From a virus: DNA of 34,909 bases. Under the pieces are notes generated by a model. The model had not been told where the DNA came from. It saw only the letters and a list, made by a program, of their open reading frames with translations, and searched no databases. Each line of letters begins with the position of its first letter. The stretch's first letter is position 1. The translations under genes were made by a program, and so were the position numbers. Shown here one piece after another: positions 71 through 29,032 of the stretch. Where the stretch lies: positions 1 through 34,909 of the IMG/VR virus record IMGVR_UViG_3300034283_000153. One strand, 5' to 3'.

Positions 71-1482
71 ACTACCAGGTGACGACCTGGACGACTCAAT
101 CGGTTAACCAGTACATCAATGCGCAGCCGCAGGGCCGCGCCAGGATTACCCGGTATGTGTCCTCTACTGTGGTCGAGGCTGTAACTGAATATCCGTTCTT
201 CAACACCACAGTGATTGATGCTGGCCGTTGGGAACTTGAGCATGGATACGAAGATGTTTGGTCAAGCACAAGAGGCTGGCCACGCAGTGTGACGTTCCAC
301 GAAGGCCGTCTGTATTTTGGCGGCAGCAAGTCTCGCCCTGCCACAATCTGGGCCAGCCGCATTGGCTTGTTCTTTGACTTTCAGCCAACCGAGTCGCTGG
401 ACGACGATGCCTTGGAAGCCACGCTGGAAACCAACCAGCTCAACGTGATCGTGGACATGATCTCTGGCCGCGACCTGCAGGTGTTCACCACTGGCGCTGA
501 GTTTTATGTGCCACAGGCTGGCACCGAGCCGATCACACCAACGACCATTGCATTCAAGGCTGTGAGCCGTAACGGCACAAAGATCGGCACCAGGGTGCAA
601 ACCATTGAGACTGGCACGGTCTATGTGCAGCGCCAAGGAAAAGCGCTCAATGAGTTCTTGTACAGCGACACGCAGGCGACCTATGTGACCCAGCGGATCT
701 CTTTGCTGGCTGGACATTTGTTGAAGACCCCGTACCGTTTGGCGCTGCGCCGTGCGACCAGTACAGACGAAGGCGATCTTCTGCTGTCGGTCAACGAGCA
801 AGATGGCACCATGGCGGTGTTCTCTGTGCTGCGGTCCCAGCAGATCACAGCCCCATCGGAATACACAACAGACGGCCTGTTCTTGGATGTCAACGTGGAT
901 GTGACCGATATTTACACAGTGACACGGCGCACATTCAATGGCGTGAACAGGTTTTTCATTGAGCTGTTTGACAATGCTTTATTCACAGATTGTGCGTTTA
1001 TTGGTGGCGCTGCTAGTGGTGTTGGCTCTGGCCTCCCACACATTGGCAAGAGCCTGAATGTGATCACAGACGGTGTGCCACAGTCAAACGAGACAGTAAG
1101 TGGTGGTGGTGCTGTGACATTTGATCGGGCCAGCACCACGGCGTATGAGGTGGGCCTGCCGATTTCTGTGTATGTCAGGACCATGCCTGTCGAGGTTAAA
1201 TTGCAGACAGGCACCCGCATGGCATTCAAGAAGCGCATTGTGGAAATCAACGCAATCGTTGACGATACACAGCACATGCAAATCAACAACAACCCAGTTC
1301 CATTCCGAACTTTTGACAATCCTCTTTTGGATGAGCCGGTTCCTGAGTTCACTGGTATCAAGCGGGTCAACGGCGTGCTTGGTTATGATCGTGAGCAAGC
1401 AATTGAGGTCAGTCAAAACCTGCCGCTGAAAATGACGCTGCTTGGTCTTGAGTACAAGGTCGCTGTGTCTGGAGGTACATGA
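1..1482 (+). CDS. Tail tubular protein B-like (nozzle) protein, C-terminal two thirds (gene wraps from 34102)
   Basis: This is the second part of a gene whose start lies at 34102. Codon 246 ends at 34839, and base 1 (Asp-Tyr-Val) continues in the same frame, giving a joined protein of about 739 residues. The family, typified by T7 gp12, forms the distal nozzle of the short tail, and its length (T7 gp12 is 794 aa) fits. This portion is beta-rich with repeated short strands. It contains a segment around bases 340-480 (FFDFQPTESLDDDALEATL, then NVIVDMISGRDLQVFTTGAE) typical of these proteins. It is followed by the gp14-like gene with a one-base overlap. The family call rests on the N-terminal half and on gene order. 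A start codon inside this window at base 22 (GTG) is not needed. Confidence 0.85.
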   Translation, partial: DYVGSTKVATVNIPFSPAPNGTSNYQVTTWTTQSVNQYINAQPQGRARITRYVSSTVVEAVTEYPFFNTTVIDAGRWELEHGYEDVWSSTRGWPRSVTFHEGRLYFGGSKSRPATIWASRIGLFFDFQPTESLDDDALEATLETNQLNVIVDMISGRDLQVFTTGAEFYVPQAGTEPITPTTIAFKAVSRNGTKIGTRVQTIETGTVYVQRQGKALNEFLYSDTQATYVTQRISLLAGHLLKTPYRLALRRATSTDEGDLLLSVNEQDGTMAVFSVLRSQQITAPSEYTTDGLFLDVNVDVTDIYTVTRRTFNGVNRFFIELFDNALFTDCAFIGGAASGVGSGLPHIGKSLNVITDGVPQSNETVSGGGAVTFDRASTTAYEVGLPISVYVRTMPVEVKLQTGTRMAFKKRIVEINAIVDDTQHMQINNNPVPFRTFDNPLLDEPVPEFTGIKRVNGVLGYDREQAIEVSQNLPLKMTLLGLEYKVAVSGGT

Positions 1483-2090
1483 TGGCATTGACAACACAAC
1501 AAACTGCAAACATCTATGCTGGTGCCGGACTGCTATCTGGCATCAGCACAGGCATAGCGCAACAGGCTGCGGCCATTAACCAGCAGACTGGTTACATGGT
1601 CAACGCCATCAACACGCTGGCCATTGCCAACGTAAGGGCAGACCAAGAGGAGCGATATGCGGCCATCCAGGCTGGGCGTCTGCTCAAGCGTGCAGAGAAT
1701 GAAAGCCTGAATTACAAGATGGCTGGCAACGCTCTGATCCGTAACCTAGAGAAGGTAAACGCCTCGGCCCGTGCGCGTGCTGCGGCCAACGGTGTTGCAT
1801 TCAATGAGGGTTCCGCTGCGTTTGTGCAGGACGCCAACGCTCGGGCAACATTCCGCGATGTCGGCTTGACTGACTACAACTCACTGATGGCTCGGGTGCT
1901 TGGGTTTGAAGACGCCAGTTCTATGTTGAACAATGCAGAGATTCAAGCTCAGATGACACGCGCAGGAGCAAGGATGCAGGCTGGTCAGTTCCAGACAGCG
2001 GCATCGGCAGCGCGCGCAACGGGTGGTTTGTTGGCAGGCGCTTCCCTGACAGAAAGCGCTGTGAAGTTCAGCAAAACATACAAACCATAA
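1482..2090 (+). CDS. Internal virion protein, T7 gp14-like
   Basis: This is a 202-residue Ala/Gln/Asn-rich helical protein. An N-terminal Gly/Ala hydrophobic stretch (about residues 10-30, AGAGLLSGISTGIAQQ) is followed by amphipathic helices, as expected for the small ejection protein that inserts into the host outer membrane. T7 gp14 is 196 aa and sits in the same place, after the nozzle gene. GGAGG at 1471-1475 lies 6 bases before ATG 1482 and only 3 before ATG 1479, so I chose 1482; its A overlaps the TGA of the nozzle gene. The assignment is by size, composition and position, because this family is weakly conserved. Confidence 0.7.
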   Translation: MALTTQQTANIYAGAGLLSGISTGIAQQAAAINQQTGYMVNAINTLAIANVRADQEERYAAIQAGRLLKRAENESLNYKMAGNALIRNLEKVNASARARAAANGVAFNEGSAAFVQDANARATFRDVGLTDYNSLMARVLGFEDASSMLNNAEIQAQMTRAGARMQAGQFQTAASAARATGGLLAGASLTESAVKFSKTYKP

Positions 2091-2099
2091 GGCAACAGC

Positions 2100-3872
2100 A
2101 TGGCAACACTTCCGCAAATTGAATCGGGCCGAGTGCAGCTGGCAAGTGTGCCAGGTGCGCAGCTGCCGACCATCAACGTCCCGCAGATCAATATGATCGG
2201 CACGCAGGTGCAGGCCCAACAGGCCAGCACGCTGGCGCAGCTGCTTGACCGCATGAGCCAGAGCGCCTTTGGCGAAGCTGGCAAGTTGCAGGAGAAGGCT
2301 GGTGTCCAGTTTGCCGCCGAGAATCCGATCACCAATGAGCAGCTGGAGCTGGCCAAGAATGGCGACATGAGTTTTGTTGGTGCCGCCAACAGTCAAAACA
2401 TTTTTGACATGGCACTGCGCAAAGCTCGCAGCCTGGAGGTTGCATCGCATTTTGAGGCAGAGGGTCGCACTGAGCTGACGAAGCTGCTTGCCCAAGTCGA
2501 AACCGGCAAGGTGACATCGCAAGATGTGGCCACAAAAATCAGGTCTATGACCGATGGTTTGGCCAAGTCGCTGGCCCCGGTGGATGCCGATGCCGCGCTG
2601 AAGTTCCGCGCCAGCATGGGAACGTATGGCAGCACCGTGCTGAAGGCTGCGTTTGATGCCGAGCAAAAGCGTGCCAAAGAGCAGCGCAAAATCAAATTTG
2701 ATGTTTCTTACAACGACATCACAAGGCTGATGGAGGAGACTGTCAAGCAAGGCGGCTGGATGGATTCCAATGGCCAGATGCGCTCCATTGATGAGTTGGC
2801 CGGCGTAATGCGCGAGAACGTCAAGAATGAGGCTTTGCTGCTTGGCGATGCGGCTTTGCAAAAGCAGTACAGCGACGATTTTGAAAAGCGCTTTTCTGCT
2901 GCAAAGATCAATGCTGTGTCTGAGCATGTTGCGGATACTGCTTTTGCGCCAGATGCGATGACGGCCATTTCCAATTTGGACAAGGGCAACGCAGGCAAGA
3001 TGACAGCTGTCTGGAGCAAGATGACGTTTGACGAAAAGGCCAAGGTCCGCAGCAACTTGCGCACCGTGCAGATTGAGCGTCAGACCACCAAAGACCAAAA
3101 CGAAAAAGAGGCACTGACAGCTGACACCCAGCGCGTGGCCACGCTGCAGTCCGAGTTCTTCAGGTCAGGCAGCAAGTCAGCTCTTGATGAACTGCGTGCC
3201 ATCAGCATCCGCAACCCCAAGGCAATCAGCCCAGAGACCGTCTTTGACTTGCCCAAGAAGCGCAGCGAGGGCGAGATCGCAAACCCACGCGCTGAGTTTG
3301 TAATCAAGACTGAGATCTTGCAGGGCTTGCACTCAGATGCGGCATCTATTGAGCGCAGAGCCAGGCAGCTTGGCATTGGTTACAAGCGATTGAGTGAGGA
3401 AATTTTGCCTTTTCAACTTAAGCGAGGCGATAAAGATGAGAGCGACATCGAGCGCATGTTCCGCACTGAGTCCAAAATCGTGCCTGGACAGTTCAACATC
3501 AGCCAGCGCCAAAATGCTGCTTACGCCAAGCTGACCACAGATTTCGCCCGTGAGTACCCGCTGCGCGTGGCTCAAGCCGAGGCTGCCAGAAAGCCAGTAC
3601 CAACGCGCATGCAAGTGGCCAAAGATCTGCTTTCTGTGCGACAAACCAGCGAGCAAAACAGGGCCATCAAGCTCAACCTTGATGCGCTGAACAATCAATT
3701 CGGGGTTGCTGGAACTTTGCGCAAGACTGGCATTGTGTTTACCGATGAGTCGGATTACGGCGAGATCGCCAGCCAGGCAAAGAAACTGGGACTTAGTACT
3801 GATGACTTGCGCAGCATTGAACAACGCATGAAAATCATCAAGCAACAACGTGAAGCATTGGACGCACAATGA
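2100..3872 (+). CDS. Internal virion (ejection) protein, gp15-position
   Basis: This 590-residue, highly charged, almost wholly helical protein is rich in Ala, Lys, Glu and Gln, with long heptad-like runs (for example residues 300-340) and no signal peptide or membrane segment. It sits between the gp14-like gene and two very large proteins, the position of T7 gp15, which forms part of the trans-envelope ejection conduit. No enzymatic motif is visible. ATG 2100 starts 9 bases after the upstream stop. The gene overlaps the next one by ATGA at 3869-3872, so the two are translationally coupled. Function is inferred from position and composition only. Confidence 0.6.
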   Translation: MATLPQIESGRVQLASVPGAQLPTINVPQINMIGTQVQAQQASTLAQLLDRMSQSAFGEAGKLQEKAGVQFAAENPITNEQLELAKNGDMSFVGAANSQNIFDMALRKARSLEVASHFEAEGRTELTKLLAQVETGKVTSQDVATKIRSMTDGLAKSLAPVDADAALKFRASMGTYGSTVLKAAFDAEQKRAKEQRKIKFDVSYNDITRLMEETVKQGGWMDSNGQMRSIDELAGVMRENVKNEALLLGDAALQKQYSDDFEKRFSAAKINAVSEHVADTAFAPDAMTAISNLDKGNAGKMTAVWSKMTFDEKAKVRSNLRTVQIERQTTKDQNEKEALTADTQRVATLQSEFFRSGSKSALDELRAISIRNPKAISPETVFDLPKKRSEGEIANPRAEFVIKTEILQGLHSDAASIERRARQLGIGYKRLSEEILPFQLKRGDKDESDIERMFRTESKIVPGQFNISQRQNAAYAKLTTDFAREYPLRVAQAEAARKPVPTRMQVAKDLLSVRQTSEQNRAIKLNLDALNNQFGVAGTLRKTGIVFTDESDYGEIASQAKKLGLSTDDLRSIEQRMKIIKQQREALDAQ

Positions 3873-6235
3873 GCATCAATTTTGATCAGCGCTATATTGA
3901 CTTCAACCTGGCTCGGGATTACCCGCCTGCGCCACCAGAAGAGCAGCCAGATGAGATGCCCATGATGGAGGATGTGCAGCTGGCCGCTGGCCCGTCTGGC
4001 ACAGTGTCTGATGCTGGCGCTGCTTTTGGTGTGTTCCCGCAAATGAAGCCTCGCAGGGGTGGCCGCAGCGACATTGGTGAGCGCGTAATCACTGGCGCAC
4101 CAGACTTTGCTGCCGGGACTGCTCGCGGCGCAGCGACGGCTGCCCTTGGCTTTGGTGGTGACATCCAAAAAATTGGCAGGTTCATTTCTGCGCTGGCCAC
4201 CGACAACCAAGGCGGCAGCATTGCTGACAGATTGGGCCGAGCTGCCCAGACTATGGACAACCCCACATTGCTGCCATCCAGTGAAGATGTGAGCAAAGGC
4301 GGTTACACCATCCCAGGCACCAGCATCACATTGCCAGGCTTGCCGCCTGCCGTGCCTGCTGGCCAAGCTGGATTTGGTATGACACCAGAGCAACGTCAAT
4401 CGGCAGCAGAGGCTGGCCAGTTTACTGGCGAGCTGGTTGGCGATCCGTTTATCTTTGCCAAAGGTGGACAGCTTGCAGCAAAAGCCATTCAGTCCACCAA
4501 AAACATGCCTGTGGGTATGAGTACACAAGCAGTTGGCGGCATGGAAAATGTATTGATTCCTCCAGCAAGTGGAATAGTTACACCTCAAGCCGACTTGCAG
4601 CCTGGTTTAAATGTTGCTGCTGGAAACAAGATCGGAGTTGAGCAAGATTTGCGGGTAAAGGTTCCATCGCCAGACCTCGAAATGCCAGACAAGCCACTGC
4701 TTCTTTTGTCTACTGACGAAAAGAACGTAGGCAGACAAATCGAAAACCTTGACGCGATTTTTGCAAAATTCCCAGAACCTGTGTTGACGCAAGATTCTTG
4801 GACAAAAATGTTGGGCTATGCATTCAAGTCGGACGAAGTTCCAGTTCCTCCATATGCAGCCATCAAAGCTCTTGAGTCGCCAGAAAACTTGGCAGCACCT
4901 TTGCGCAAATTGACGCAAGGACAAATTGATGATGCAAGTGCAGGATTCAAAAATGCTGGGCAGTTTAAAGAGCTGTACACATCTGGCAAGGCCGATGTGG
5001 TTACCACTGGTAAATTGTTCTTGTGGTCTTTCTTGTCTCGCGGTGTAAGCCCGTATGTGCAAGAAGGTTTGTTCATGGATGCAATCAGTGGAATTGAACC
5101 ATTTCTGCAAAAAGCCGCATCTGGAAAATTTGACAAAACAGATTTGGATGAGTATTTGGCCTGGGCATCAACTGTTGCAGGCAAGGGTTCTGGCCAACCA
5201 GGCTCTGGTGCCATGCACAACCTCAATGCATTTGGCAAAAACTTTTTGACAAAGCTGGCCACCAAAGACGCAGAAGGCATCACTGGTCTGCAAAAAGTCC
5301 ATGAAATGATGGCCAACCCGAACATGAGTGGACCACAGATCAGACGCGAATTTGCAAAGATCGGCACAGGTGTTGGCATTGACAACAAGGTTGTCAGCTT
5401 TACGTTACTGGTCAGTGGTCGCGATGATGTGCTTGTGATTGACCGGGTGCAATTGCGAAACCTTTGGGACGATGGAAGGTTTTCCGGCAAAAACTTGTGG
5501 GATGGCCGATCTGAGAAAAAGATGGTCAAGCAAAAAGATGGCACAGAAATTGAGAAAAGCGCACAAATTGCTGGCACAGCGCTTTCTGAAATAACCTATG
5601 GCGCTAAAGGTTTGCTTGTGTACGAGGCTCTTGAACGAGCAATGGCGCAACAGCTCAAAGATGCGTACAGATTGGTTGGCCGCGAAGGTGATGCTTCACT
5701 TGGCCGTTATCACTGGGAGACATGGGTCGCAGGATCTCAGCAAGAAGCCAGCCATGGAACCATTGATGCAATCATGCGCGAGGCTGCTGGAGTGCCGGAG
5801 CCGTTTAAAGGCGTAACCGCAAAGCAAGGTGAATATGGGATGTATGACTATGGCGCAAAGTATGGCGTTGATAAATCTGGACCATACTTTATCTACGACA
5901 ATTCCAAAGGCGAACAATTCAGGTTTACCGTGCCAGAATACCGTGATATGCTGACGGCAATAAAAGATCCCAAGTCGGGTATTGTCCCAAAGAATTTCAG
6001 AGTTTCTGCCAGTGGTAACGCCCCATGGTTTGAACGCTCTGAGGTTAACAGGAGTAAATTAGATGAACTCATTGCCTCAAGAGGACTCAAAATTGGAAAC
6101 TCGCAATCTGGAAAACAACTTGTTTCAACAGATGGCGAAGGTTCAGCAGCCAATGCAACCAGAAGCAGAGCAGCCAGAGCAAAAAGTACAGTCGTAACAG
6201 GGAGCGCTGTAGCTCCAGAACAAGGAGCTAAGTGA
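3869..6235 (+). CDS. Large ejection-type virion protein with a DUF7178-like, HhH-GPD glycosylase-resembling core
   Basis: The protein has 788 residues. Residues 1-250 are low-complexity, Pro/Gly/Ala rich and GC-rich in codon use. Residues about 290-640 form a compact domain that I associate, from memory, with phage DUF7178 proteins. Inside it, GVGIDNK (501-507) is followed by a hydrophobic helix and then VLVIDR with Asp525. The GVG..K...(18)...D spacing resembles the hairpin-Lys/Asp active site of OGG-type DNA glycosylases. A later conserved-looking stretch is YHWETWVAGSQQEASHGT (614-631). From about base 4500 the DNA is clearly AT-richer than the flanks, suggesting separate ancestry of the core. 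The gene lies among internal virion genes, so the protein is probably packaged and ejected. The enzyme idea is inference; the virion location is by context. Confidence 0.55.
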   Translation: MSINFDQRYIDFNLARDYPPAPPEEQPDEMPMMEDVQLAAGPSGTVSDAGAAFGVFPQMKPRRGGRSDIGERVITGAPDFAAGTARGAATAALGFGGDIQKIGRFISALATDNQGGSIADRLGRAAQTMDNPTLLPSSEDVSKGGYTIPGTSITLPGLPPAVPAGQAGFGMTPEQRQSAAEAGQFTGELVGDPFIFAKGGQLAAKAIQSTKNMPVGMSTQAVGGMENVLIPPASGIVTPQADLQPGLNVAAGNKIGVEQDLRVKVPSPDLEMPDKPLLLLSTDEKNVGRQIENLDAIFAKFPEPVLTQDSWTKMLGYAFKSDEVPVPPYAAIKALESPENLAAPLRKLTQGQIDDASAGFKNAGQFKELYTSGKADVVTTGKLFLWSFLSRGVSPYVQEGLFMDAISGIEPFLQKAASGKFDKTDLDEYLAWASTVAGKGSGQPGSGAMHNLNAFGKNFLTKLATKDAEGITGLQKVHEMMANPNMSGPQIRREFAKIGTGVGIDNKVVSFTLLVSGRDDVLVIDRVQLRNLWDDGRFSGKNLWDGRSEKKMVKQKDGTEIEKSAQIAGTALSEITYGAKGLLVYEALERAMAQQLKDAYRLVGREGDASLGRYHWETWVAGSQQEASHGTIDAIMREAAGVPEPFKGVTAKQGEYGMYDYGAKYGVDKSGPYFIYDNSKGEQFRFTVPEYRDMLTAIKDPKSGIVPKNFRVSASGNAPWFERSEVNRSKLDELIASRGLKIGNSQSGKQLVSTDGEGSAANATRSRAARAKSTVVTGSAVAPEQGAK

Positions 6236-9200
6236 TGGCGATTCAACCCCTCGACCAACGTCTGGACAGCATGGTTGCGTCACCAGATGCGACCGACATT
6301 GACCCATCACTGCCTGGCACTCCACAGCTTGGCGCGCCAGACATGCCGCAAGAAGAGGGCACACAGGTCGCCGGTCTTGGCATTGGCATTCTCAAGGGTT
6401 TGACCAAGGCTGGCGCTCGCGCAACCAAAGAACCCAAGCTGATTGATGAGGTGGTGCAAGTCACGCCGCCTGGTGCCACAAAGCCTGTGGCCACGCCTGT
6501 TGCGCCTGTGCCCGTAACACCGGCCAAAAAGCCTGCAGCGCCCAAGCCTCGCCCGGTCGATGTGACCGAGATGAACACCATTGCTGATGAGCGCCTGTTC
6601 TTGCAGACGGAAGGCATCGCCCAGGCATCGCCACCTGACACACCGATCAGCAGCGCATGGACAGACAACGATGGCCTGGCCGCCACCATCCGCGCTGCTG
6701 GTGACAACTTCGCTACCCAAGACCCCAGCATGTCGCTGCGCTCAATCTACACAAACGCAATCAACGCTGGTGTTCCTGAGCAGTTCCTGAAGACAGCGCT
6801 GGCTGGCGAGAGCATGGAGGCCACCGTGGGCGGCAGCAGCCTGGCCAAGCAGTTGGCCGGTGCCGTGGTGGTGCATGACGAAAGCGCCAAGAAGCTGGAC
6901 GGCTTGTTCCAGCAGATGGCCTCCGGCAGCTTGGATGATCAGGGCAAACTCAACCTGCGCCTGCAACTGGCCCAGCACAAGATCATTGTTGACCAGCTCA
7001 AGGGCATCCAGACCGATGTGGCCCGTTCTCTTAACGTGTTCAAGCGCGTGAAGGATGCAGGCCCAGGGCTGGATACACGCACCGTGCGTGCTGCCCTGGA
7101 TGAGCTGGGTGCCAACCAGTCCGACCAAGTGCTGTTCCAGCTTGCCACCGACTACATCAACACCCCGACCCGCGCTGGCAAAAACCGCATGATTGAGGCT
7201 GGCCTAGGTGCCAAGCTACGCGATGTCTGGTTCCACACCTACCAAGCCAACCTGCTGAACGACCCACAGACACATGCCTACAACTTGGTGGGCAGTGGCG
7301 TGTTTGGGGCTTTGGCACCCATTGAGCGCACTGTGGCCGTTGGCATTGGCAAGGCTCGCCAGATGATCCCTGGTGCAGACCCTGACCGCTACAGAATGGA
7401 CGACATTCAGGCTGGCTTGTCTGGCCTGAAGAATGGCATCTTGGACGGCTGGGAGCTGGCAGCCAAAGCGCTTAAAGAAGGCGGCGAGTCGAAGATGACT
7501 GACGTTGGTGCGCGTCTTAACCCTGTGTCCTCTGAGTATCTGTCCGACACCCCGCTGCGTTTGTTTGGCAAAGAGGTTTACCGCACGCCAGATCTGCGCG
7601 ACACATGGATGGGCCGCGCCATTGATGGCCTTGGCTTTGTGCAAGACGCTATGAGCTTCAGGCCAATCGCTGCAGCTGACGAGTTTGTCGGCTCAATCGT
7701 TGGCCGCTACCAGTTGCACGAAGAAGCCTATCGCTTTGCCAACAAAGAGTATGACCGCCTGATTGCCAATGGCATGAATGATGTCGCAGCCCGTGCCGAG
7801 GTGGAGGGCAAGGTTGGCCAGCTGCTTATTGAGCGCCCACGCGAAATGCAAGAGAGCGTCGAGGGCATGCGCCGCATGGTGACTCTGCAGGAAACCATCA
7901 GCAAAGAGGGAGCGCTTGGCGAGACCTACTGGTGGAGCAACCAGATCCTGAACCTGGCCCCCATCAAAGTGATCGTGCCTTTTGCCAGAACAGTGACCAA
8001 CCTGTTTATTGAGGGCAGCAGCTACATCCCAATGCTCAATACCCTGTCGCCCAGGTTTTACGACTTGTGGAGCAAGGGCGGTCGCCACCGCGATGTGGCC
8101 ATTGCTCGCCTGTCCATGGGTGGCACGGCCATCACTGGTGCTGCGATGCTGACGCTGGACAACCGATTGACCGGCTCCGGCCCATCTCAAACCGAAGACC
8201 GCCAGGCTTTGCAGAACTTGGGTTGGCAGCCTTACTCCATGGTATTCGACAAGGGCGAGATTAGCGAGGAGAACATTGAGCGCCTGAGTGCCATCACCAA
8301 GGTCGGTGTTGGCCCGGATAAGGTGTATGTCAGCTATGCCCGATTCGACCCCATCAGCATGATCTTATCCATGGGTTCAGACATGGCCGATGCCAGCAAG
8401 TTCGACCGCCACCCAGACCGCGAGGACTGGCAGGTTATGGCCATGGCTGGCATGACGGCTGTGGGCGAATACATGAGCAACCTGCCACTGATGCAGGGTA
8501 TTGGCGAGCTGATGGCTGTGGCCAGATCTCGGTCAACTGACACGGGCGAAAAGATCGTCCAGATGTTTGATGCGCTGGCCAAGCAATACACCAACTTCCT
8601 GTACACAGGCACACCCGGCGTGGGCATCAGCAATAGCACGCTGATGGCACACATTGAGCGCTTAATTGACCCAACCAGGTCCAACACCAAGTCGCCCGAG
8701 ATGAACACGCCACCCGGCCTGCGCGCTTTCTACGAGGCACGCCAGCGGGTTATGTCGCGCATCCCAGGCCTGTCCGAGAATGTGCCACCGCTGCTGGACA
8801 ACTTGGGCCGCGAGTCTGTCGTCCGCAACCGTGGCCTAGATTATTGGGCCAACTGGTCGCCAATTGTCCAGGCGACAGAGGGCAGAAGCTCCGAGGTGGA
8901 TGAGATCTTGGCCAGCCTGAACTTTGGCATTGCCAACCCCAGCGAGACATGGGACGGCGTGCGCCTGTCGTCTGGCCAGATCAATCGCTTCAAGCGCCTG
9001 TATGGCCAAGAGATCTTGGACGAAGGCATGAACCTTGAGCAGCGCATCCCGTATGAACTCAAGCAGGCCGAGGCTGACGCCAATGCGTCTGGTGAACCAC
9101 TGCTGGTCGGCGACAAGCAAAAGCTGATCAGCTCAATCGTAGAGCGCTATCGTTCCATGGCCAAGTTCAAGATGGTTGGTGGCCCTGATGGTGAGGTTGA

Positions 9201-9282
9201 CGAAGAGGGTGGGATTGAGTTCCCAGATCTGTCGTCGGCTATGCAGCGCAACCGCGATATCTCAAGGACATACGGCAAGTAA
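6235..9282 (+). CDS. Very large ejection-type virion protein (gp16 position)
   Basis: This 1015-residue protein has a Pro/Ala/Lys-rich N terminus (residues 40-110). A long mainly helical body includes WFHTYQANLLNDPQTHAYN (about 330-350) and VIVPFARTVTNLF (about 580), patterns seen in large phage virion and polyvalent proteins that handle DNA entry. It occupies the slot of T7 gp16 (1318 aa), but I see no lytic transglycosylase signature at its N terminus, so cell-wall cutting must be elsewhere or absent. AAGGAG at 6222-6227 is 7 bases from ATG 6235 and 4 from GTG 6232, which favours ATG 6235, overlapping the previous TGA. It is the last gene before a probable new promoter. Confidence 0.6.
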   Translation: MAIQPLDQRLDSMVASPDATDIDPSLPGTPQLGAPDMPQEEGTQVAGLGIGILKGLTKAGARATKEPKLIDEVVQVTPPGATKPVATPVAPVPVTPAKKPAAPKPRPVDVTEMNTIADERLFLQTEGIAQASPPDTPISSAWTDNDGLAATIRAAGDNFATQDPSMSLRSIYTNAINAGVPEQFLKTALAGESMEATVGGSSLAKQLAGAVVVHDESAKKLDGLFQQMASGSLDDQGKLNLRLQLAQHKIIVDQLKGIQTDVARSLNVFKRVKDAGPGLDTRTVRAALDELGANQSDQVLFQLATDYINTPTRAGKNRMIEAGLGAKLRDVWFHTYQANLLNDPQTHAYNLVGSGVFGALAPIERTVAVGIGKARQMIPGADPDRYRMDDIQAGLSGLKNGILDGWELAAKALKEGGESKMTDVGARLNPVSSEYLSDTPLRLFGKEVYRTPDLRDTWMGRAIDGLGFVQDAMSFRPIAAADEFVGSIVGRYQLHEEAYRFANKEYDRLIANGMNDVAARAEVEGKVGQLLIERPREMQESVEGMRRMVTLQETISKEGALGETYWWSNQILNLAPIKVIVPFARTVTNLFIEGSSYIPMLNTLSPRFYDLWSKGGRHRDVAIARLSMGGTAITGAAMLTLDNRLTGSGPSQTEDRQALQNLGWQPYSMVFDKGEISEENIERLSAITKVGVGPDKVYVSYARFDPISMILSMGSDMADASKFDRHPDREDWQVMAMAGMTAVGEYMSNLPLMQGIGELMAVARSRSTDTGEKIVQMFDALAKQYTNFLYTGTPGVGISNSTLMAHIERLIDPTRSNTKSPEMNTPPGLRAFYEARQRVMSRIPGLSENVPPLLDNLGRESVVRNRGLDYWANWSPIVQATEGRSSEVDEILASLNFGIANPSETWDGVRLSSGQINRFKRLYGQEILDEGMNLEQRIPYELKQAEADANASGEPLLVGDKQKLISSIVERYRSMAKFKMVGGPDGEVDEEGGIEFPDLSSAMQRNRDISRTYGK

Positions 9283-12436: not shown

Positions 12437-12911
12437 AGAATTAGAGGTCAGGGTGTGGGGCTTTGTGGTCGTGATGATCACATTGATCCTGGCTGGCATT
12501 GTGTTTGCGTTGCTGTACTCAGTGACCTTTGTCACCCAGCCGATCAAATCAATGGCGCCCATTGACCAGGCTTACACCAAGATGCTGAACGACATTGTGC
12601 TGCTGATCGTTGGCGGCATTGGCGGCATTGTTGGCAAGCGTGCTGTCAGTGGTGTGATCAACAACAAGCCACCGGCCAACTCCGCTGTTGCCACCAACAC
12701 AGCAACGCAGACCACCACAGCAGCGCCACAGGCTTACTGCGCCCCATCGACCACTGTGTCAATGCCTGATTTCAACTGGATGGGCTACAAGAACCCAGAG
12801 CTTGATGAGTCGTGGACCCCCGGTCCACCACCGACAACGCCGCCAGAGCATATGGAAGATGACGCCGAGCGTGAGATCTTGGCAGCAGCTCGCCAAGAGG
12901 CAAAGTCGTGA
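12393..12911 (+). CDS. Holin-like protein with two membrane helices, TTG start
   Basis: This 172-residue protein has a first membrane helix at about residues 24-48 (FVVVMITLILAGIVFALLYS) and a second Gly-rich helix at about 69-88 (IVLLIVGGIGGIVGKRAVSG). A Pro/Thr-rich and then acidic cytoplasmic-type tail follows. Two helices with a Gly-zipper fit a class II-like holin, although the tail is longer than usual. The start is TTG 12393, supported by GGAG at 12382-12385 seven bases upstream; it lies inside the lipoprotein gene. It sits directly before the spanins and endolysin. The holin call is inference from topology and neighbours. Confidence 0.55.
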   Translation: MIKLDNPQTPKLTAEELEVRVWGFVVVMITLILAGIVFALLYSVTFVTQPIKSMAPIDQAYTKMLNDIVLLIVGGIGGIVGKRAVSGVINNKPPANSAVATNTATQTTTAAPQAYCAPSTTVSMPDFNWMGYKNPELDESWTPGPPPTTPPEHMEDDAEREILAAARQEAKS

Positions 12912-13411
12912 ACAAGTATCTGATCGCTGCAGCTGTGGGTGTGGTGGCCGTGGTGGGTCTGTACAAGTACGGCTACCACAATGGCTGGGCAGATCGCAAT
13001 ACTGAGATGCAGGCCGAGATCGCCAAGAAGAATGAAGAGGCTCGCAGCAAAGAACAAGAGATGGCCAAGGCTGTCGCTGATAAAGAAACCGAACTGAGAA
13101 AGGTCAACGATGTTGTCTCTCAAAAGCAAACTGATCTCAATCGCCTCATTGCTGCTGGCAGGGTGCGCCTCCCCGCCGCAAGTTGCGTACAAGCCCCCGC
13201 AAGTGCCCCCGTTGCCACCGGAAATAGCAACCAAGCGCCAAGCCAACCTGACCGAGCGCCTGACCCAGATCCTGGTGCCAGCGAATCCGAGCGCGAAACC
13301 CTCCGACTCATCGCCCAGATCGCAGCAGACGGGGACCGCGCCATCAACCAGCTCAACGCCTGCATCGCAGCCTACGACGAAATGAGGAGCATTGTGAATG
13401 GTCAACGCTGA
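12908..13411 (+). CDS. Rz: Rz-like inner-membrane spanin
   Basis: This 167-residue protein has an N-terminal membrane anchor (residues 4-20, YLIAAAVGVVAVVGLYK) and a long charged coiled coil (about 30-75). A Pro/Ala linker and a C-terminal helical part ending NACIAAYDEMRSIVNGQR follow. This is the design of an i-spanin, which spans the periplasm and pulls the two membranes together at the end of lysis. The proof of identity is the second lipoprotein gene nested in another frame at 13110. GTG 12908 overlaps the holin-like stop (GTGA). The 3' end overlaps the endolysin start by 14 bases. Confidence 0.85.
   Translation: MNKYLIAAAVGVVAVVGLYKYGYHNGWADRNTEMQAEIAKKNEEARSKEQEMAKAVADKETELRKVNDVVSQKQTDLNRLIAAGRVRLPAASCVQAPASAPVATGNSNQAPSQPDRAPDPDPGASESERETLRLIAQIAADGDRAINQLNACIAAYDEMRSIVNGQR
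13110..13385 (+). CDS. Rz1: Rz1-like outer-membrane spanin lipoprotein nested in Rz
   Basis: The 91-residue reading frame lies wholly inside Rz, shifted by one base. It starts with a lipoprotein signal (ISIASLLLAGC, lipobox Cys19), and the mature part is Pro-rich (PPQVAYKPPQVPPLPPEI), a hallmark of Rz1 o-spanins. AAAGG at 13099-13103 precedes ATG 13110. Nested Rz/Rz1 pairs are known from lambda and many Gram-negative phages. The product would be anchored in the outer membrane and pair with Rz through the periplasm. Confidence 0.85.
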   Translation: MLSLKSKLISIASLLLAGCASPPQVAYKPPQVPPLPPEIATKRQANLTERLTQILVPANPSAKPSDSSPRSQQTGTAPSTSSTPASQPTTK

Positions 13412-13997
13412 ACAACTCAAGCAGCTGCACATCGACGTTAAGTGGGTCGAGCCGCTTAATGAAGCCTTTGAACGCTTTGGCATTTTGACGCCACGGCAGC
13501 AGGCTGCATTCATTGGCCAATGTGGCCACGAATGCGGAAACTTCAGGGTGCTGGAAGAGAATCTGAACTATCGTGCCGAAACGCTGATGAAACTCTGGCC
13601 AAGGCGCTTTCCTACGCTGGAATTTGCCAAGACGTTTGAGCGCAACCCCAAGAAGATCGCTAACACGGTTTATGCTAACCGCATGGGCAATCGCGACGAG
13701 GCATCTGGTGATGGGTATCGTTTTAGGGGCAGGGGTTGCATTCAGCTCACTGGCTCTGCCAACTATCACCACGCCGGCAAGGCATTGGGTGTTGATCTGA
13801 TCATGGAACCCGAGCTGGTTGCTACTCCGCAGTACGCTGCACTGACCGCTGGTTTTTTCTGGCACACCCAAAAGCTCAACAATATTGCTGAGTCTGGTAA
13901 CAACCTAGCGCTGACCAAGAAGATCAACGGGGGCACGATTGGCCTTGATGACCGCATCAAGCACACCAACCATGCCCTCCAAGTTTTAGGTCATTGA
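13398..13997 (+). CDS. Endolysin, glycoside hydrolase family 19 (chitinase-like)
   Basis: The protein has 199 residues. It contains GQCGHECGNF (40-49), where Glu45 is the likely general acid, an Asn-Tyr-Arg substrate segment (LNYRAETL), and YRFRGRGCIQLTGSANY (about 108-124), the signature of GH19 phage lysozymes. These cut the glycan strands of peptidoglycan. No signal peptide is present, so export depends on the holin-like proteins upstream. GAGGAG at 13384-13389 is 8 bases before ATG 13398. The stop overlaps by 7 bases the end of the convergent recT gene. Confidence 0.9.
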   Translation: MVNAEQLKQLHIDVKWVEPLNEAFERFGILTPRQQAAFIGQCGHECGNFRVLEENLNYRAETLMKLWPRRFPTLEFAKTFERNPKKIANTVYANRMGNRDEASGDGYRFRGRGCIQLTGSANYHHAGKALGVDLIMEPELVATPQYAALTAGFFWHTQKLNNIAESGNNLALTKKINGGTIGLDDRIKHTNHALQVLGH

Positions 13998-15082
13998 GCA
14001 GCGCCCAAAGCCTTCAGACGCTTTTGGTAGTTGGCTGTGTGCCTGATGCGCTTGACCATGTCCACGCGCTTGATGGTCTCTTCATTGACATCCTTAAACT
14101 CTCGCAAGATGGTCATGCGTTCGCGTGCTGACCGCTTGCCTGCTTTGGCGATCCTGTCAGCCATGTCCTCATAGGCATCCTGCCAATCGTCCAAGCTGGC
14201 ATGCACGCTGGTGGGCGTGGTCTTGCCAGGCACAAACACCGCAAAGCCATCGCCCACCACCATGGGCTCTGGCACCCAAGACTTGTCGTCCTCGCTTGGC
14301 ACGCTCTCCAACATCTCAGCCACAGGCTCTGGCTGTTGCGTTTCTGCAACAGTCTCTGTCGCCTCGGTGACTTCAGGAATATCAACCACCTCTGTTCCAG
14401 GCATCACTACGGCATCCACGGTGTCGGCCATCAGGTTTTCAATCTGGGCGCGGTCGTTGGTCGCTTCAATGGCTGGTGCGGCCACCAAATCCAACGGGTT
14501 GGCGGGCTTGGGTTGTAATTTAATCGCCGTGGAATTTTTTGACAATTCATCGGGGTAATCCTGAGCCTCCTCGGCGGTGATCAGACCCTTGAGCACATCG
14601 GGGAACGCATCACGCAGGGCAAAGCCACGGGCACGCATCTGCATCATGCGCTTGGGGTATGCCTGCCACGGGCCTTGCTTGCCCCACAAGCCAGCTCGCT
14701 TGGCGTCCTCGACCGAGAACTTGGCCACCACGGGCTTGCGGCCCTTGCGCTTGGCCACACACACTGCCACCGGGTTGGGCGTGCCCTCGGCTTCAAAGTA
14801 TTCCTCAACGTCCTCGCACACGGGGCTTGCCTGCACCAGCGCCATGGCTGCGTCACCGTACACGCTGGGCTTGCCATTGATCACGGCGATGTTCTGCAGC
14901 GCTTGCATGGGTGCCAGGCCGATTTCATAGCCCCACTGCACGCAGACCATGATGTCCTGGGGCTTGCCCTGGTATGCCTTGGGAACCATGGCGCTGCTGG
15001 CCAGCATCTCGCTGAACTGGATGGCCTCGGTGATGGTGGCCGGGGCAAAGCCTTGGCGATTAGTGGTGGTCAGTGCGGTCAT
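13991..15082 (-). CDS. recT: RecT-family single-strand annealing protein
   Basis: This 363-residue protein has core features WGYEIGLAPMQALQNIAVI, KPSVYGDAA, then GLWGKQGPWQAYPKRMMQMR and ARGFALRDAFPDVLKG, characteristic of RecT/Bet-type annealases. These proteins pair complementary single strands during phage recombination. An acidic Pro/Glu/Val-rich linker (about 195-270) leads to a C-terminal helical domain with MADRIAKAGKRSARERMT. Its partner exonuclease is encoded two genes upstream in the same operon. It overlaps the 65-aa gene by 23 bases. It is the last gene of the leftward operon, and its stop is interlocked with the endolysin stop. Confidence 0.9.
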   Translation of the reverse strand: MTALTTTNRQGFAPATITEAIQFSEMLASSAMVPKAYQGKPQDIMVCVQWGYEIGLAPMQALQNIAVINGKPSVYGDAAMALVQASPVCEDVEEYFEAEGTPNPVAVCVAKRKGRKPVVAKFSVEDAKRAGLWGKQGPWQAYPKRMMQMRARGFALRDAFPDVLKGLITAEEAQDYPDELSKNSTAIKLQPKPANPLDLVAAPAIEATNDRAQIENLMADTVDAVVMPGTEVVDIPEVTEATETVAETQQPEPVAEMLESVPSEDDKSWVPEPMVVGDGFAVFVPGKTTPTSVHASLDDWQDAYEDMADRIAKAGKRSARERMTILREFKDVNEETIKRVDMVKRIRHTANYQKRLKALGAAQ

Positions 15083-15257
15083 GGTTTTCCTCGACGTATG
15101 TTTTCAGGGTGGTGATGATCAGATCGGCCATGGCTTCGACGAATGCCTCGGCCTGGTCTTCGGCTATCTCTGTGCGCTTGGGTGCGTTGATGGCGTTGAG
15201 CAGCGCGACAACGGCTGCCTCATACCGTGGTGCAATGACTGGGTGTTCTATATTCAC
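15060..15257 (-). CDS. Small acidic protein between exonuclease and annealase
   Basis: The 65 residues start NIEHPVIAPRYEAAVVALLN and end with a His/Asp-rich tail (VEENHDRTDHH). It looks soluble and helical, with no recognised domain. GTG 15257 overlaps the exonuclease stop (GTGA) and has AAGGAG ten bases before it, so translation is well supported. Being sandwiched between exonuclease and RecT suggests a link to recombination, but I do not recognise the family. Confidence 0.65.
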   Translation of the reverse strand: MNIEHPVIAPRYEAAVVALLNAINAPKRTEIAEDQAEAFVEAMADLIITTLKTYVEENHDRTDHH

Positions 15258-16207
15258 GGCAGCTCCTTCACGGTCAAGCTGGACTGGCGCACGCTGTAGG
15301 CTTTTTTGGCTGGCACCAATCGCTCGGGCGAGTCTTTGTAGTTGCGCATTGGCCAGCTGATCACAACATTGCCAGCTCGGCCACGCTCTGCATCACCCAA
15401 CATTTTTTTTATCTGTATCTCGGCCTTTCCGATAGACTCCTCGGCCTCTCGGATGTCGGCCTTGGCCTGCAAGATCACGCCAGCCCACTGCTCTGCTTCG
15501 GATGGCAGCTGGACCTCTTCTTTGGCAGCGGCATAGGGATAGATGCGATCCAACTCTTTGCTGCTTGCTGGTGGGTACCAGTCAATCGCGCCGTCCTTGA
15601 CGTATGTGTCAAGCTTATTCTGAAACTCACCCACGGCTTTGACAATGGCGTCTTGGGTCTGCTTGTGTGGGGCGAACAGGAACACGCGCAGCTCAATTCC
15701 TTGGTACAGCACGCACACGCAGCCCCACTTGTGGCCAGTGACCAGCATCTGGCCCTGCAGCTGGATCGGGCCACGCGCCAGGTGCGGTGTCTCCTCGGGC
15801 ATGGTCTTGGTCAGCTTGGCTTCCAGCACGCCTGGACCGTCCAGCACGATGCTGTCTTGACCAACCACAAAGATGCCCTTGTCTGGGTCGGTGGTGATCT
15901 CTTGGCCCTCGCCAAAGCCTATGCCGTCCAGGCTGCACTGCAGCGCGATTTCGTGGTGCTTGTATGGCTTGTCAATCCGAAAGTCACCAGTGATGCCAAG
16001 CCTCACGCAGGCCTCGGACAAGATCACGGGCTCAAGGGTGTTGCCCCAGCCCATCGCTTCGTTGCCTATGTCGGGGCGCTCCTTGCCGTCGATGGCGTTG
16101 ATGCTGTACTGCAGCTCATCATTGGGCGTGCTGTACTTGCTGAAGCCCATCAGGCCCGGCAGGCGCGAGGCAGACATCTCGCGGTCATCAGTTAATTTTC
16201 CGGCCAT
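15254..16207 (-). CDS. YqaJ-type phage recombination exonuclease (PD-(D/E)XK)
   Basis: This 317-residue protein has EAMGWGNTLEPVIL (Glu59), CSLDG (Asp94), VLEAKLTK (Glu129-x-Lys131) and QLQGQM (Gln150/Gln152), the ordered active-site residues of the YqaJ/lambda-exonuclease fold. It would resect double-stranded ends 5'-to-3' to give single strands for RecT. The C-terminal part carries a charged coiled coil (about 245-275) and an added Arg/Lys-rich end. ATG 16207 lies inside the 3' end of the winged-helix gene (20-base overlap). Confidence 0.88.
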   Translation of the reverse strand: MAGKLTDDREMSASRLPGLMGFSKYSTPNDELQYSINAIDGKERPDIGNEAMGWGNTLEPVILSEACVRLGITGDFRIDKPYKHHEIALQCSLDGIGFGEGQEITTDPDKGIFVVGQDSIVLDGPGVLEAKLTKTMPEETPHLARGPIQLQGQMLVTGHKWGCVCVLYQGIELRVFLFAPHKQTQDAIVKAVGEFQNKLDTYVKDGAIDWYPPASSKELDRIYPYAAAKEEVQLPSEAEQWAGVILQAKADIREAEESIGKAEIQIKKMLGDAERGRAGNVVISWPMRNYKDSPERLVPAKKAYSVRQSSLTVKELP

Positions 16208-16706: not shown

Positions 16707-17354
16707 TCAAATGCGCTTGAGCAAGTTGGCGACCTGGCTGGGATGCCAGACACAGCCACCGCGAGGTGTCTCGATGCCACGGGCCTCCAGCACCTCGGCA
16801 ATGTCTCGCATGGTCTTGGCGCCAGTCTTGGCGATGATCTCGCGCACCACTGGACCCACGCGCTCGGCGTAACGATCAGCCTTGGCCTGCAGCTTGGCAA
16901 TGCCAGCAGCGCTGCCCAGCTCGGGTGTCGGGCAGCCCAGCTTGCGACCCTGTGCCTTGATCTGTGCCAACGCTGCCTTGGTCCGCTCGCTGATCTTGCG
17001 TGCCTCCAGCTCGGCGAACACGGCCATCATCTGCAAGAAAGTGCGGTCAGCCTCGGGCATGTCAGCGCACACAAACGGCACGCCTGACTCCAGCAGGCCG
17101 CTGATGAAGTGGACGTTACGGGCCAGACGGTCCAGCTTGGCGATCACCAAGATGGACTTTGTACGCTTGGCCAGGCTCAGTGCATGAGCCAGCTGCTCGC
17201 GGTCGTTCTTGCGGCCAGACTCCACCTCAGTGAACTCGGCCACCAGTTCGGCCTGGCCGATGTGCTTGGCCACAGCTGCACGCTGGGCATCCAAGCCCAA
17301 GCCGGACATGCCTTGGCGGTCTGTGGAAACGCGATAGTAAGCGACGAATTTCAT
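16707..17354 (-). CDS. Small serine recombinase (resolvase/invertase family)
   Basis: The protein has 215 residues. YYRVSTDRQ places the nucleophile at Ser10. The later motifs ILVIAKLDRLARN and FAELEARKISERTKAAL are the arginine and helix-E regions of serine recombinases. The C-terminal part (about 150-215) ends TMRDIAEVLEARGIETPRGG, then a Trp-containing helix-turn-helix-like unit. It is far shorter than large serine integrases (450 aa or more) and close to resolvases. It could resolve genome multimers, invert a segment or mediate a rare integration. I saw no inverted crossover sites near it. Its ribosome site AAGGAG overlaps the TAA of the upstream gene. Confidence 0.85.
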   Translation of the reverse strand: MKFVAYYRVSTDRQGMSGLGLDAQRAAVAKHIGQAELVAEFTEVESGRKNDREQLAHALSLAKRTKSILVIAKLDRLARNVHFISGLLESGVPFVCADMPEADRTFLQMMAVFAELEARKISERTKAALAQIKAQGRKLGCPTPELGSAAGIAKLQAKADRYAERVGPVVREIIAKTGAKTMRDIAEVLEARGIETPRGGCVWHPSQVANLLKRI

Positions 17355-26274: not shown

Positions 26275-27903
26275 ATGCAATACTCAAAAGATGCGCCAGG
26301 CGGCATGCGCTTGGCACCAGACGAAATTATCAAGCGACAAGCTGCAGCTCAGACCAAAAAGGATGAGTTCCAGCAGCTGTATCAGGACGCATACGAATTT
26401 GCCCTGCCCCAGCGCCAGCTGTATGGCGTTTGGGAGGGCGGCGCCACTGGCAGCAAGAAGATGCAGCGGGTCTTTGACTCCACCGCGATCAACAGCACCC
26501 AGCGCTTTGCAAACCGACTGCAGTCTGCTGTGTTCCCGCCCCAGCAAAAGTGGTGCAGGCTTGAGTCTGGCAGCCTGATCCCAATGGATCGAAAGCAGGC
26601 CGCACAGGCCGCGCTTGATGTTTACAGCGAGAAGATGTTTGCTGTTCTCAAGCAGTCCAACTTTGACATCGCCATTGGCGAGTTCTTGCTGGACATGGCC
26701 GTCGGCACAGCCTGCATGATGGTGCAGCCTGGCGACGATGTGACGCCAATCAACTTTATCCCCGTGCCGCTGTTCTTGGTGAGCTACGAGGAAGGCGCAA
26801 ACGGCCAGGTGGACAATGTTTACCGCCGCATGCGCATGAAGGCCGAAAGCATCTCACGCCAGTGGCCAGACGCACAGATCCCCGATGCGCTCAAGCGCCT
26901 GATTGCTGACAAGCCGACAGAAGACGTTGAGCTGCTGGAGGCTGTCATTCACGACCACAAGCGTGGCGATTATTGCTACCACGTTATCTGGAAGACAGGC
27001 AAAGAAGAGCTGGTTTATCGCCGCCGCAAGAGCAGCCCATGGGTGATCTCACGCTACATGAAGGTGGCCGGCGAGATCTATGGCCGTGGTCCGCTGATGA
27101 CGGCCCTGCCCGACATCAAGACGCTGAACAAGACCAAAGAGCTGTTGCTCAAAAACGCATCACTGGCCGTGGCTGGGGTGTACACCGCTGCCGACGATGG
27201 CGTGCTGAACCCCAACACGGTCAAGATCGTGCCTGGTGGCATCATCCCCGTAGCACGCAACGGTGGCCCACAGGGTCCAAGCCTGCAGTCTCTGCCGCGC
27301 TCGGGGGACTTCAACGTCAGCCAGCTGGTCATCAACGATCTGGTGCAGAACATCAAGCGCATTTTGCTGGACGAGTCTTTGCCGCCAGACAACATGAGCG
27401 CACGCTCGGCCACCGAGATCGTGGAGCGCATGAAAGAGCTGGCCCAAAACTTGGGTTCTGCCTTCGGTCGCTTGATCAATGAAACCATGATCCCGCTGGT
27501 GGCCAAGATCCTGGAGGTCATGGATGAGAAGGGCTTGATTGACTTGCCGCTGCGCGTCAACGGCCTTGAGGTCAAAGTCACGCCTGTGTCCCCACTGGCT
27601 CAAGCCCAGAGCATGGAAGAGGTCAACGCCATCATCCAGTTTACACAGCTCATGCAGTCTGGCCAGTTTGGCCAAGACGGCGCTTTGGCCATCAAGACAG
27701 ATGCGGCGGTGGATTACATCGCCGACAAGATGGGTGTGCCAGCCGCTGTGCGCAACGACACGACCGAGCGTGCTGTTTTGATGGAAGAGATGCAGGCCAG
27801 GCAAGAGGCCGCGATGGCCGCGCAAGTGAGTGCGCAGGCCACAATTGCCGCAGCGCAAGGCAGTGACGATCAGCAACTCTTGGAGGCTATCAATGCGGGA
27901 TGA
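26275..27903 (+). CDS. Portal (head-to-tail connecting) protein, T7-like
   Basis: The protein has 542 residues, close to T7 gp8 (536). Features of the podovirus connector family include FDSTAINSTQRFANRLQSAV near residue 65, then ISRYMKVAGEIYGRGPLMTA (about 258-278) and LPDIKTLNKTKELLLKNASL, and TEIVERMKELAQNLGSAFGR (about 380-400). It would form the dodecameric channel at the capsid vertex, bind terminase during packaging and later the tail. ATG 26275 has AAGGA upstream. The end overlaps the collagen-like gene by 11 bases. Confidence 0.92.
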   Translation: MQYSKDAPGGMRLAPDEIIKRQAAAQTKKDEFQQLYQDAYEFALPQRQLYGVWEGGATGSKKMQRVFDSTAINSTQRFANRLQSAVFPPQQKWCRLESGSLIPMDRKQAAQAALDVYSEKMFAVLKQSNFDIAIGEFLLDMAVGTACMMVQPGDDVTPINFIPVPLFLVSYEEGANGQVDNVYRRMRMKAESISRQWPDAQIPDALKRLIADKPTEDVELLEAVIHDHKRGDYCYHVIWKTGKEELVYRRRKSSPWVISRYMKVAGEIYGRGPLMTALPDIKTLNKTKELLLKNASLAVAGVYTAADDGVLNPNTVKIVPGGIIPVARNGGPQGPSLQSLPRSGDFNVSQLVINDLVQNIKRILLDESLPPDNMSARSATEIVERMKELAQNLGSAFGRLINETMIPLVAKILEVMDEKGLIDLPLRVNGLEVKVTPVSPLAQAQSMEEVNAIIQFTQLMQSGQFGQDGALAIKTDAAVDYIADKMGVPAAVRNDTTERAVLMEEMQARQEAAMAAQVSAQATIAAAQGSDDQQLLEAINAG

Positions 27904-29032
27904 TGTAGCACGCGCAGCGGCTTTGCGTGCGTTAGAAATCGCACGCGAAGCAAAAGCTATGAAGTCCGAAAAGGGCGACAAGGGCGATCCTGGTGAAATC
28001 AAGGTGATACACATCCCCGTGCCAGGTGAGCAAGGGCCAAAGGGTTCATTTGGCCCAAGAGGCGCTCAAGGCGAGCGCGGAGATCCTGGCTTACAGGGTC
28101 CAGAGGGTAGACAAGGCCCAGTTGGTCCTGCTGGCAAAGATGGACTTGATGGCTCTGTTGGCCCCAAGGGTGAGCGCGGGTTAAAAGGCGACAAGGGCGA
28201 CAAAGGCGACAAAGGCGAAAAGGGAGACACCGGCGATCTTGGCCCAATGCCAAAATTTGAGCGCAAGGGCTTGATGTTTCGCTTTGAAAAGTCGCCTGGC
28301 GTATGGGGCGATTGGATTGTTGTTCCTACTGGTGGCGGTGGTGGCGGTGGCCGCGATGACAAGCTGACGGACCGTCAAAAGCAACTGGTCGAAATTGCGG
28401 AGCTAATCAAGTCCAAAGAAGCCAATGGCGGCAAAGTAATTGGCAGCGATGGCACCAACTTAATTTGGACTGAAGGTGGTGGTGGCGGTGGCTCTGTCAC
28501 TGATGTTACAGGGACATTACCTGTAGTTTCTAGCGGCGGGGCTACACCTGCCATTAGTTTGGCGTCAGGATACGGGGATACACAAAACCCATACGCCAGC
28601 AAAACAGCCAACTTTGTTTTGGCAGCACCGAACGGTTCGTCAGGTGTTCCAACATTCCGCGCCGTAGTTGCTGCGGATATTCCTACACTTAATCAAAACA
28701 CCACGGGCACAGCGGCAAACGTCACGGGTGTTGTGGCTGTTGCCAACGGTGGTACAGGGACTGCAACCCCGTCTTTGGTGGCTGGCACGAACATTACAAT
28801 CTCTGGGACTTTCCCGAACCAAACCATTAACTCTACTGGTGGTGGTGGCTCGCTAATTGTGCAAGACGAAGGCTCCACGCTCACAAGCGCAGCGACTTCT
28901 CTGAACTTCACAGGTGCTGGAGTCACAGCCACAAACACAGGCGGCGCTGTTACAGTTGCTGTTACTGGCGGTGGTGGCGGTGATTCATCACCTATCCCCA
29001 AACTTCAATCTTGGTCAATCGGAGCAATGTAA
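27893..29032 (+). CDS. Collagen-like fibre protein
   Basis: The 379 residues begin with a short helical, charged lead. Gly-X-Y repeats follow, in an unbroken set of about 25 triplets at residues 45-119 (for example GPKGERGLKGDKGDKGDKGE). After a KFERKGLMFRFEKSPG linker come Gly-rich hinges (GGGGGGG twice), a helical segment and a beta-rich tail with VANGGTGTATPSLVAGTNIT typical of phage fibre tips. GGAG at 27882-27885 supports ATG 27893. It follows the portal gene, so it may be a head or neck fibre in place of a tail fibre. The triple-helix part would form a trimeric rod. Confidence 0.85.
   Translation: MRDDVARAAALRALEIAREAKAMKSEKGDKGDPGEIKVIHIPVPGEQGPKGSFGPRGAQGERGDPGLQGPEGRQGPVGPAGKDGLDGSVGPKGERGLKGDKGDKGDKGEKGDTGDLGPMPKFERKGLMFRFEKSPGVWGDWIVVPTGGGGGGGRDDKLTDRQKQLVEIAELIKSKEANGGKVIGSDGTNLIWTEGGGGGGSVTDVTGTLPVVSSGGATPAISLASGYGDTQNPYASKTANFVLAAPNGSSGVPTFRAVVAADIPTLNQNTTGTAANVTGVVAVANGGTGTATPSLVAGTNITISGTFPNQTINSTGGGGSLIVQDEGSTLTSAATSLNFTGAGVTATNTGGAVTVAVTGGGGGDSSPIPKLQSWSIGAM

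Follow-up and report, generated by a model that had tools for sequence, protein, structure and literature searches.

A 34,909-nucleotide stretch of viral DNA (IMG/VR record IMGVR_UViG_3300034283_000153, positions 1 to 34,909; hereafter the window) contains, on the plus strand at 3869..6235, an open reading frame (ORF) for a protein of 788 amino acids (aa). The C-terminal two thirds of this protein appear to form a helix-hairpin-helix-GPD (HhH-GPD) DNA glycosylase and apurinic/apyrimidinic (AP) lyase resembling OGG2, which would be packaged in the virion and would enter the cell together with the phage DNA; we give this reading a probability of about three in four. It draws on a computed fold, an aligned catalytic pair, purifying selection acting on the protein and a computed placement of the gene among virion genes. 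Judged from the structural model and the sequence, it is likely that the module has glycosylase/lyase activity on DNA.

Fold and catalytic residues of the C-terminal module

The structural model was obtained for the mobile cassette that contains the module (residues 245-740; 4601..6088; this and all other features of the protein lie on the plus strand). AlphaFold2 given eight near-identical sequences returned a predicted local distance difference test (pLDDT) score of 47, and that model was not used; given a 63-sequence alignment, it returned a pLDDT of 91.3 and a predicted template modelling (pTM) score of 0.89. Structural comparison with VIA-align placed OGG2 enzymes at all of the first four ranks: 3knt (Z 14.6, root-mean-square deviation 2.9 Å, 203/206 residues), 3n0u (14.1), 3fhg (13.9) and 3fhf (13.6). 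The matched core covers residues ~332-629 (4862..5755; 88-385 in the numbering of the model), near the domain boundaries of 290-640 guessed in an earlier sequence-only reading of this DNA. Following OGG2 were OGG1 (Z 10.0), EndoIII-3, ROS1, Qng1 (Z 8.9), MagIII, MutY and AGOG (Z ~6); the top 39 matches were almost all HhH-GPD proteins or derived from them, and besides HhH-GPD enzymes, Qng1 and gp46 of phage PaMx11 (Z 4.3) every chain stayed below Z 4. Foldseek likewise listed 3n0u first, with a probability of 1.00. We consider it very likely that the module adopts an HhH-GPD fold of the OGG2 type.

The presence of Qng1 and gp46 among these matches raises the alternative that the protein hypermodifies bases, as does the glycinyltransferase gp46, or acts on nucleotides or RNA, as does Qng1 in queuine salvage (DUF2419). 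Both nevertheless score far below OGG2, and the Lys-Asp pair of the module, spacing included, matches that of the bifunctional OGG2 enzymes, so that this alternative appears very improbable. Good matches to the model in a viral structure library were limited to two unnamed relatives. A weak match there (BFVD G8EYE9, 198 aa, from Synechococcus phage S-CBP42; template modelling score 0.53 by target length, probability 0.92) may be a cyanophage protein that consists of an HhH-GPD domain by itself.

The sequence-only reading had drawn attention to Lys507 and Asp525 in this ORF, and both residues stand where it placed them, in a motif that reads GTGVGIDNKVVSFTLLVSGRDDVLVIDRVQ. Its count of 18 residues between the two holds as an offset, 17 residues lying between them; this offset of 18 equals that of the four solved OGG2 enzymes, whereas the enzyme it had cited for comparison, human OGG1, has 19. 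Its broader proposal of an OGG-type glycosylase is borne out by the fold and the catalytic residues, with OGG2 and not OGG1 or AGOG as the nearest family; the two findings that it had named as counting against the proposal, an unrelated predicted fold and homologues without Lys507/Asp525, were both looked for and neither was observed. Lys507 (codon at 5387..5389), the predicted nucleophile, aligns with the catalytic lysine of OGG2 and is the equivalent of Lys129 of MjaOGG2; Asp525 (codon at 5441..5443), the predicted catalytic aspartate, is the equivalent of Asp147. The helix-hairpin-helix itself spans residues 488-515 (5330..5413), as seen in the AlphaFold2 secondary structure and in the hhalign alignment to OGG2: helices at 488-498 and 506-515, the second beginning at Asn506, flank a hairpin with the loop GTGVGID, and the conserved Asp then follows, which, within an all-helical two-domain fold such as that of the model, is the hallmark of HhH-GPD proteins.

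OGG1 and AGOG were considered as nearest family and rejected on the Lys-Asp spacing and on fold rank. Both are members of this superfamily with a comparable Lys/Asp pair. OGG1 differs, however, in an extra N-terminal domain and in its offset, and AGOG in an offset of 32 (Lys140/Asp172), a long second helix and a different hairpin (PMC3397491).

Taken by itself the motif carries little weight, since the six-frame ORFs of the window contain four instances of a loose version (shuffling of the 788-aa protein produced 0.04 instances per shuffle). What raises it above chance is the conservation of Lys and Asp across relatives. One scan for relatives had used the search word GVGIDNK and was biased towards Lys507; the claim of conservation therefore rests on a scan with search words located away from the motif, in which both residues were present in 81/81 sequences. 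They are also invariant in the 63 aligned representatives, down to ~43% identity and always at an offset of 18 (63/63), and are found in 69/69 distinct sequences over all loci. Only one of the 40 lysines of the module is invariant, and this is Lys507. The ratio of nonsynonymous to synonymous substitution rates (dN/dS) among close relatives is 0.035-0.05, and the cassette is under strong purifying selection.

These patterns bear on a second alternative, in which catalysis has been lost and the HhH fold serves as a scaffold, keeping hold of DNA inside the capsid or while it is ejected. Binding of HhH motifs to the DNA backbone shows no preference for sequence (PMC3397491) and the genes sit in a virion region, both of which would suit such a function. 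A scaffold would not need the catalytic residues, however, and these are invariant to ~43% identity, with Lys507 as the sole invariant lysine; we regard this alternative as improbable.

Sequence profiles led to the same enzymes. Searched against the whole PDB, the family profile retrieved MjaOGG2 as its first and second matches (E 0.056 and 0.19), aligned on the catalytic residues, and a repeat of the search agreed. Among 24,736 Pfam families, PF22175 (Ogg-HhH) was the only one to match two or more members of the 63-sequence set (five members, best E 0.0024). Alignment with hhalign to an OGG2 alignment gave a score of 33.8 (E 4e-4) with K and D in register, compared with scores of at most 22.2 in 100 column-shuffled controls. 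Each of these sequence scores is modest alone; together they agree with one another and with the fold.

Differences from OGG2 and the putative base pocket

OGG2 enzymes (PF22175 Ogg-HhH; MjaOGG2 3knt/3fhf, SsOgg 3fhg, Tm1821 3n0u) share with the module an all-helical fold that lacks the OGG1 A-domain, and the catalytic Lys and Asp at their offset of 18. Identity between the two is ~11-17%, however, and the module differs in being embedded in large phage proteins and in having an inserted beta hairpin after its catalytic Asp. One relative (L008/L043) lacks 38 residues directly after the VQLR of the Asp525 motif, including this beta hairpin, which may reflect a real deletion or an assembly error.

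Several observations weigh against an OGG2-like virion enzyme. The HhH hairpin of the module is two residues longer than that of OGG2, and in 63/63 sequences its chain extends beyond the OGG2 C-terminus by 74 residues or more. The Foldseek E-value for the best PDB match is modest (0.035), the PF22175 model (curated cut-off 27 bits) gave no match in the window, and direct scans of the 788-aa protein against Pfam, NCBIfam and PADLOC gave no match even at E 10. Finally, packaging and ejection are read from gene order only. A PHROG scan of the protein returned one meaningless match (E 0.25).

The extended chain matters for substrate choice. To recognise 8-oxoguanine (8-oxoG), OGG2 depends on Asp194, on Trp198 for stacking and, most of all, on the carboxylate of its final residue, a lysine; truncated OGG2 loses 8-oxoG excision and retains AP-lyase activity (PMC3397491). 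Because the chain of the module continues past this point, the C-terminal carboxylate sensor is absent. Nor is there an evident equivalent of the pocket residue Asp194. Where OGG2 has its last helix and tail, which form its base pocket, the module instead has an invariant segment, H615-W-E-T-W619...S623-x-Q-E-A-x-H629 (5711..5755). The invariant H615, W616 and W619 lie in the region of this last helix, to which Asp194 and Trp198 of OGG2 belong. We propose that the segment H615...H629 is probably the base-recognition site.

In the mechanism that these comparisons suggest, the hairpin would hold the DNA backbone and a target nucleotide would flip out into the pocket, where Asp525 would activate Lys507 for attack on the deoxyribose C1', and the base would leave via a Schiff-base intermediate, with strand cutting possible by beta-elimination. 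Side chains of H615...H629, with E626 or Q625 as the best candidates, would take over base sensing from the free C-terminal lysine of OGG2, and the substrate may consequently not be 8-oxoG. Given that the tail, the hairpin and the inserted beta hairpin all differ from OGG2, AP-lyase chemistry is the safer prediction from the model and sequence and 8-oxoG specificity the less safe one. The module thus probably works like an OGG2 enzyme, with 8-oxoG as an unproven substrate. Since it falls below the family cut-off and lacks the C-terminal sensor, we would not assign it to OGG2 itself; it forms a new OGG2-like family, and its setting is new as well. Plasmids in PLSDB, among them rhizobial and Pseudomonas ones, commonly carry genes for PF22175-type 8-oxoguanine glycosylases; two of these genes adjoin a gene for DNA adenine methylase.

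Cassette architecture and gene neighbourhood

The cassette recurs independently in phage proteins of ~800-3,190 aa. Three sets of search words located 113, 136 and 124 cassette-encoding places in a viral contig collection, and one further locus lies on an Opitutae metagenome-assembled genome contig (L192, 8001-11056), where the module gene stands between terminase and portal genes and an Endonuclease V gene is directly downstream. The cassette was not found in collections of cultured phages or of plasmids, one of these scans yielding chance matches and nothing else. Its family is large, and it is unnamed in Pfam, PHROG, NCBIfam and PADLOC. The C-terminal extension of the cassette (residues 630-740; 5756..6088), partly beta in the AlphaFold2 model, is conserved in relatives and has no OGG2 counterpart.

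Most relatives carry the cassette within proteins of 1,000-3,190 aa, and in some it shares the chain with ART-PolyVal, LPD22 or LPD38 domains. Such chains belong to the polyvalent proteins of phages and conjugative elements (PMC5512222), giant multidomain proteins encoded near virion genes; several unrelated enzymatic or polyvalent-associated domains per chain and a position near virion genes were found together in L045, L049, L056 and L095. The version in the window differs in being a short protein with only two recognisable parts. The first of these, the N-terminal region (residues 1-223; 3869..4537), is common to phage proteins with other C-terminal cargo, and in the viral collection it is joined to differing C-termini; it looks like a slot for swappable cargo. 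The cargo attached to this region includes ART-PolyVal in L015, an unnamed VEEVQSDWHQ-type domain in L013, L014 and L016-L019 and another unnamed domain in L011, and the region usually ends in a conserved KNMPVGMS junction.

The window has the gene order of a podovirus, and its large terminase has its closest counterpart in MEP301, a Methylophilales phage (full-length identity 74.5%). Upstream of the 788-aa ORF are a gene for an internal virion protein (phrog_418; 1479..2090, plus strand; E 1.4e-5) and one for a 590-aa protein that occupies the slot of an internal virion protein and is related to MEP301 gp26 (2100..3872, plus strand; E 5e-12); downstream is the gene for a 1016-aa internal virion protein (phrog_6651; 6232..9282, plus strand; E 9e-18). 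The start codon (ATG) of the 788-aa ORF shares bases with the stop codon of the gene before it, in the sequence ATGA, and the 3' end of the ORF overlaps the next start. In one relative (L060) the module gene likewise lies between internal virion protein genes, and in others its neighbours are genes for internal virion or tail proteins, terminase or portal. From this placement among virion genes we infer that the 788-aa protein is probably packaged and ejected with the phage DNA. The corresponding slot of MEP301 holds a 162-aa protein whose relation to the 788-aa protein is undetectable; the idea that MEP301 gp25 represents the N-terminal part of the 788-aa protein alone was unsupported by comparison.

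Elsewhere in the window, a small ORF whose start resembles that of a lipoprotein (13110-13385) is nested in another frame within a 167-aa ORF (12908-13411) beside a GH19-type lysis gene, an arrangement resembling an Rz/Rz1 spanin pair. Pfam matches also identified serine resolvase, RecT and YqaJ genes on the minus strand (16707-17354 and 13991-16207), and the resolvase may indicate a temperate phage. A 400-aa ORF at 27830-29032 contains collagen-like Gly-x-x repeats.

Possible roles during infection

As to its role, we lean towards an early action on the incoming phage genome, in which bases that are damaged or abasic would be cleared; an attack on modified DNA is only a little less likely. 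In the former case the enzyme would repair oxidation or base loss that the incoming genome has suffered outside the cell, before the first transcription and replication. The OGG2-type fold and catalytic pair fit this role, the location of the gene in the company of virion genes hints that the protein is delivered along with the DNA, and the Endonuclease V encoded directly downstream in L192 is a repair-type nuclease. Hosts have glycosylases of their own, however, a lyase would nick the very genome it is meant to protect, the neighbouring Endonuclease V is seen in one relative only, and the arrangement by which OGG2 senses 8-oxoG with a C-terminal carboxylate is impossible in the module. Genome repair is a possibility that we hold at somewhat less than even odds.

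The company that the cassette keeps points in another direction. It occurs in giant proteins together with ART-PolyVal, LPD22 and LPD38, a class that has been read as invasion effectors (PMC5512222), and the N-terminal region bears an ART domain in L015, as if it were an effector slot. One may therefore postulate an attack or counter-defence effector whose action would strip bases from the DNA of the host or of a rival, or would remove a modified base needed by defence systems, leaving abasic sites and strand breaks. The altered base pocket, which points away from plain 8-oxoG, would agree with such a function, and a different glycosylase, Brig1, is used by bacteria against phage DNA (PMC11078745). 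Brig1 and the restriction glycosylases (PMC11078745, PMC10273834) are alike in being DNA glycosylases in phage-host conflict; Brig1 differs in belonging to the uracil-DNA-glycosylase superfamily and in being host-encoded and aimed at phage, whereas the module is phage-encoded and HhH-GPD. On the other hand, scans with Pfam recognised no DNA-modification gene among the window ORFs that they covered, there is no named target, and effector domains usually diversify faster than a dN/dS of 0.04 would imply. We hold an effector role to be slightly less likely than genome repair.

A more specific scenario, which we regard as doubtful at present, is that a widespread class of phages injects a base-specific glycosylase/lyase with a pocket remodelled away from 8-oxoG; within minutes of the start of infection, this enzyme would excise from DNA in the cell a base that is modified or linked to defence. 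If true, the injected glycosylase would be the base-excision counterpart of injected anti-restriction proteins.

A complete glycosylase fold with both catalytic residues had not been described before in phage proteins of this kind, which are probably carried in the virion; the text of Iyer et al. 2017 (PMC5512222) on 131 domains mentions DNA glycosylase zero times. The glycosylase prediction lends itself to a direct test by common oligonucleotide assays in which one variant of the lysine is compared. If the prediction is correct, a DNA glycosylase would join the toolkit of polyvalent proteins, and base-excision chemistry would join the activities that phages probably deliver to the cell along with their DNA.

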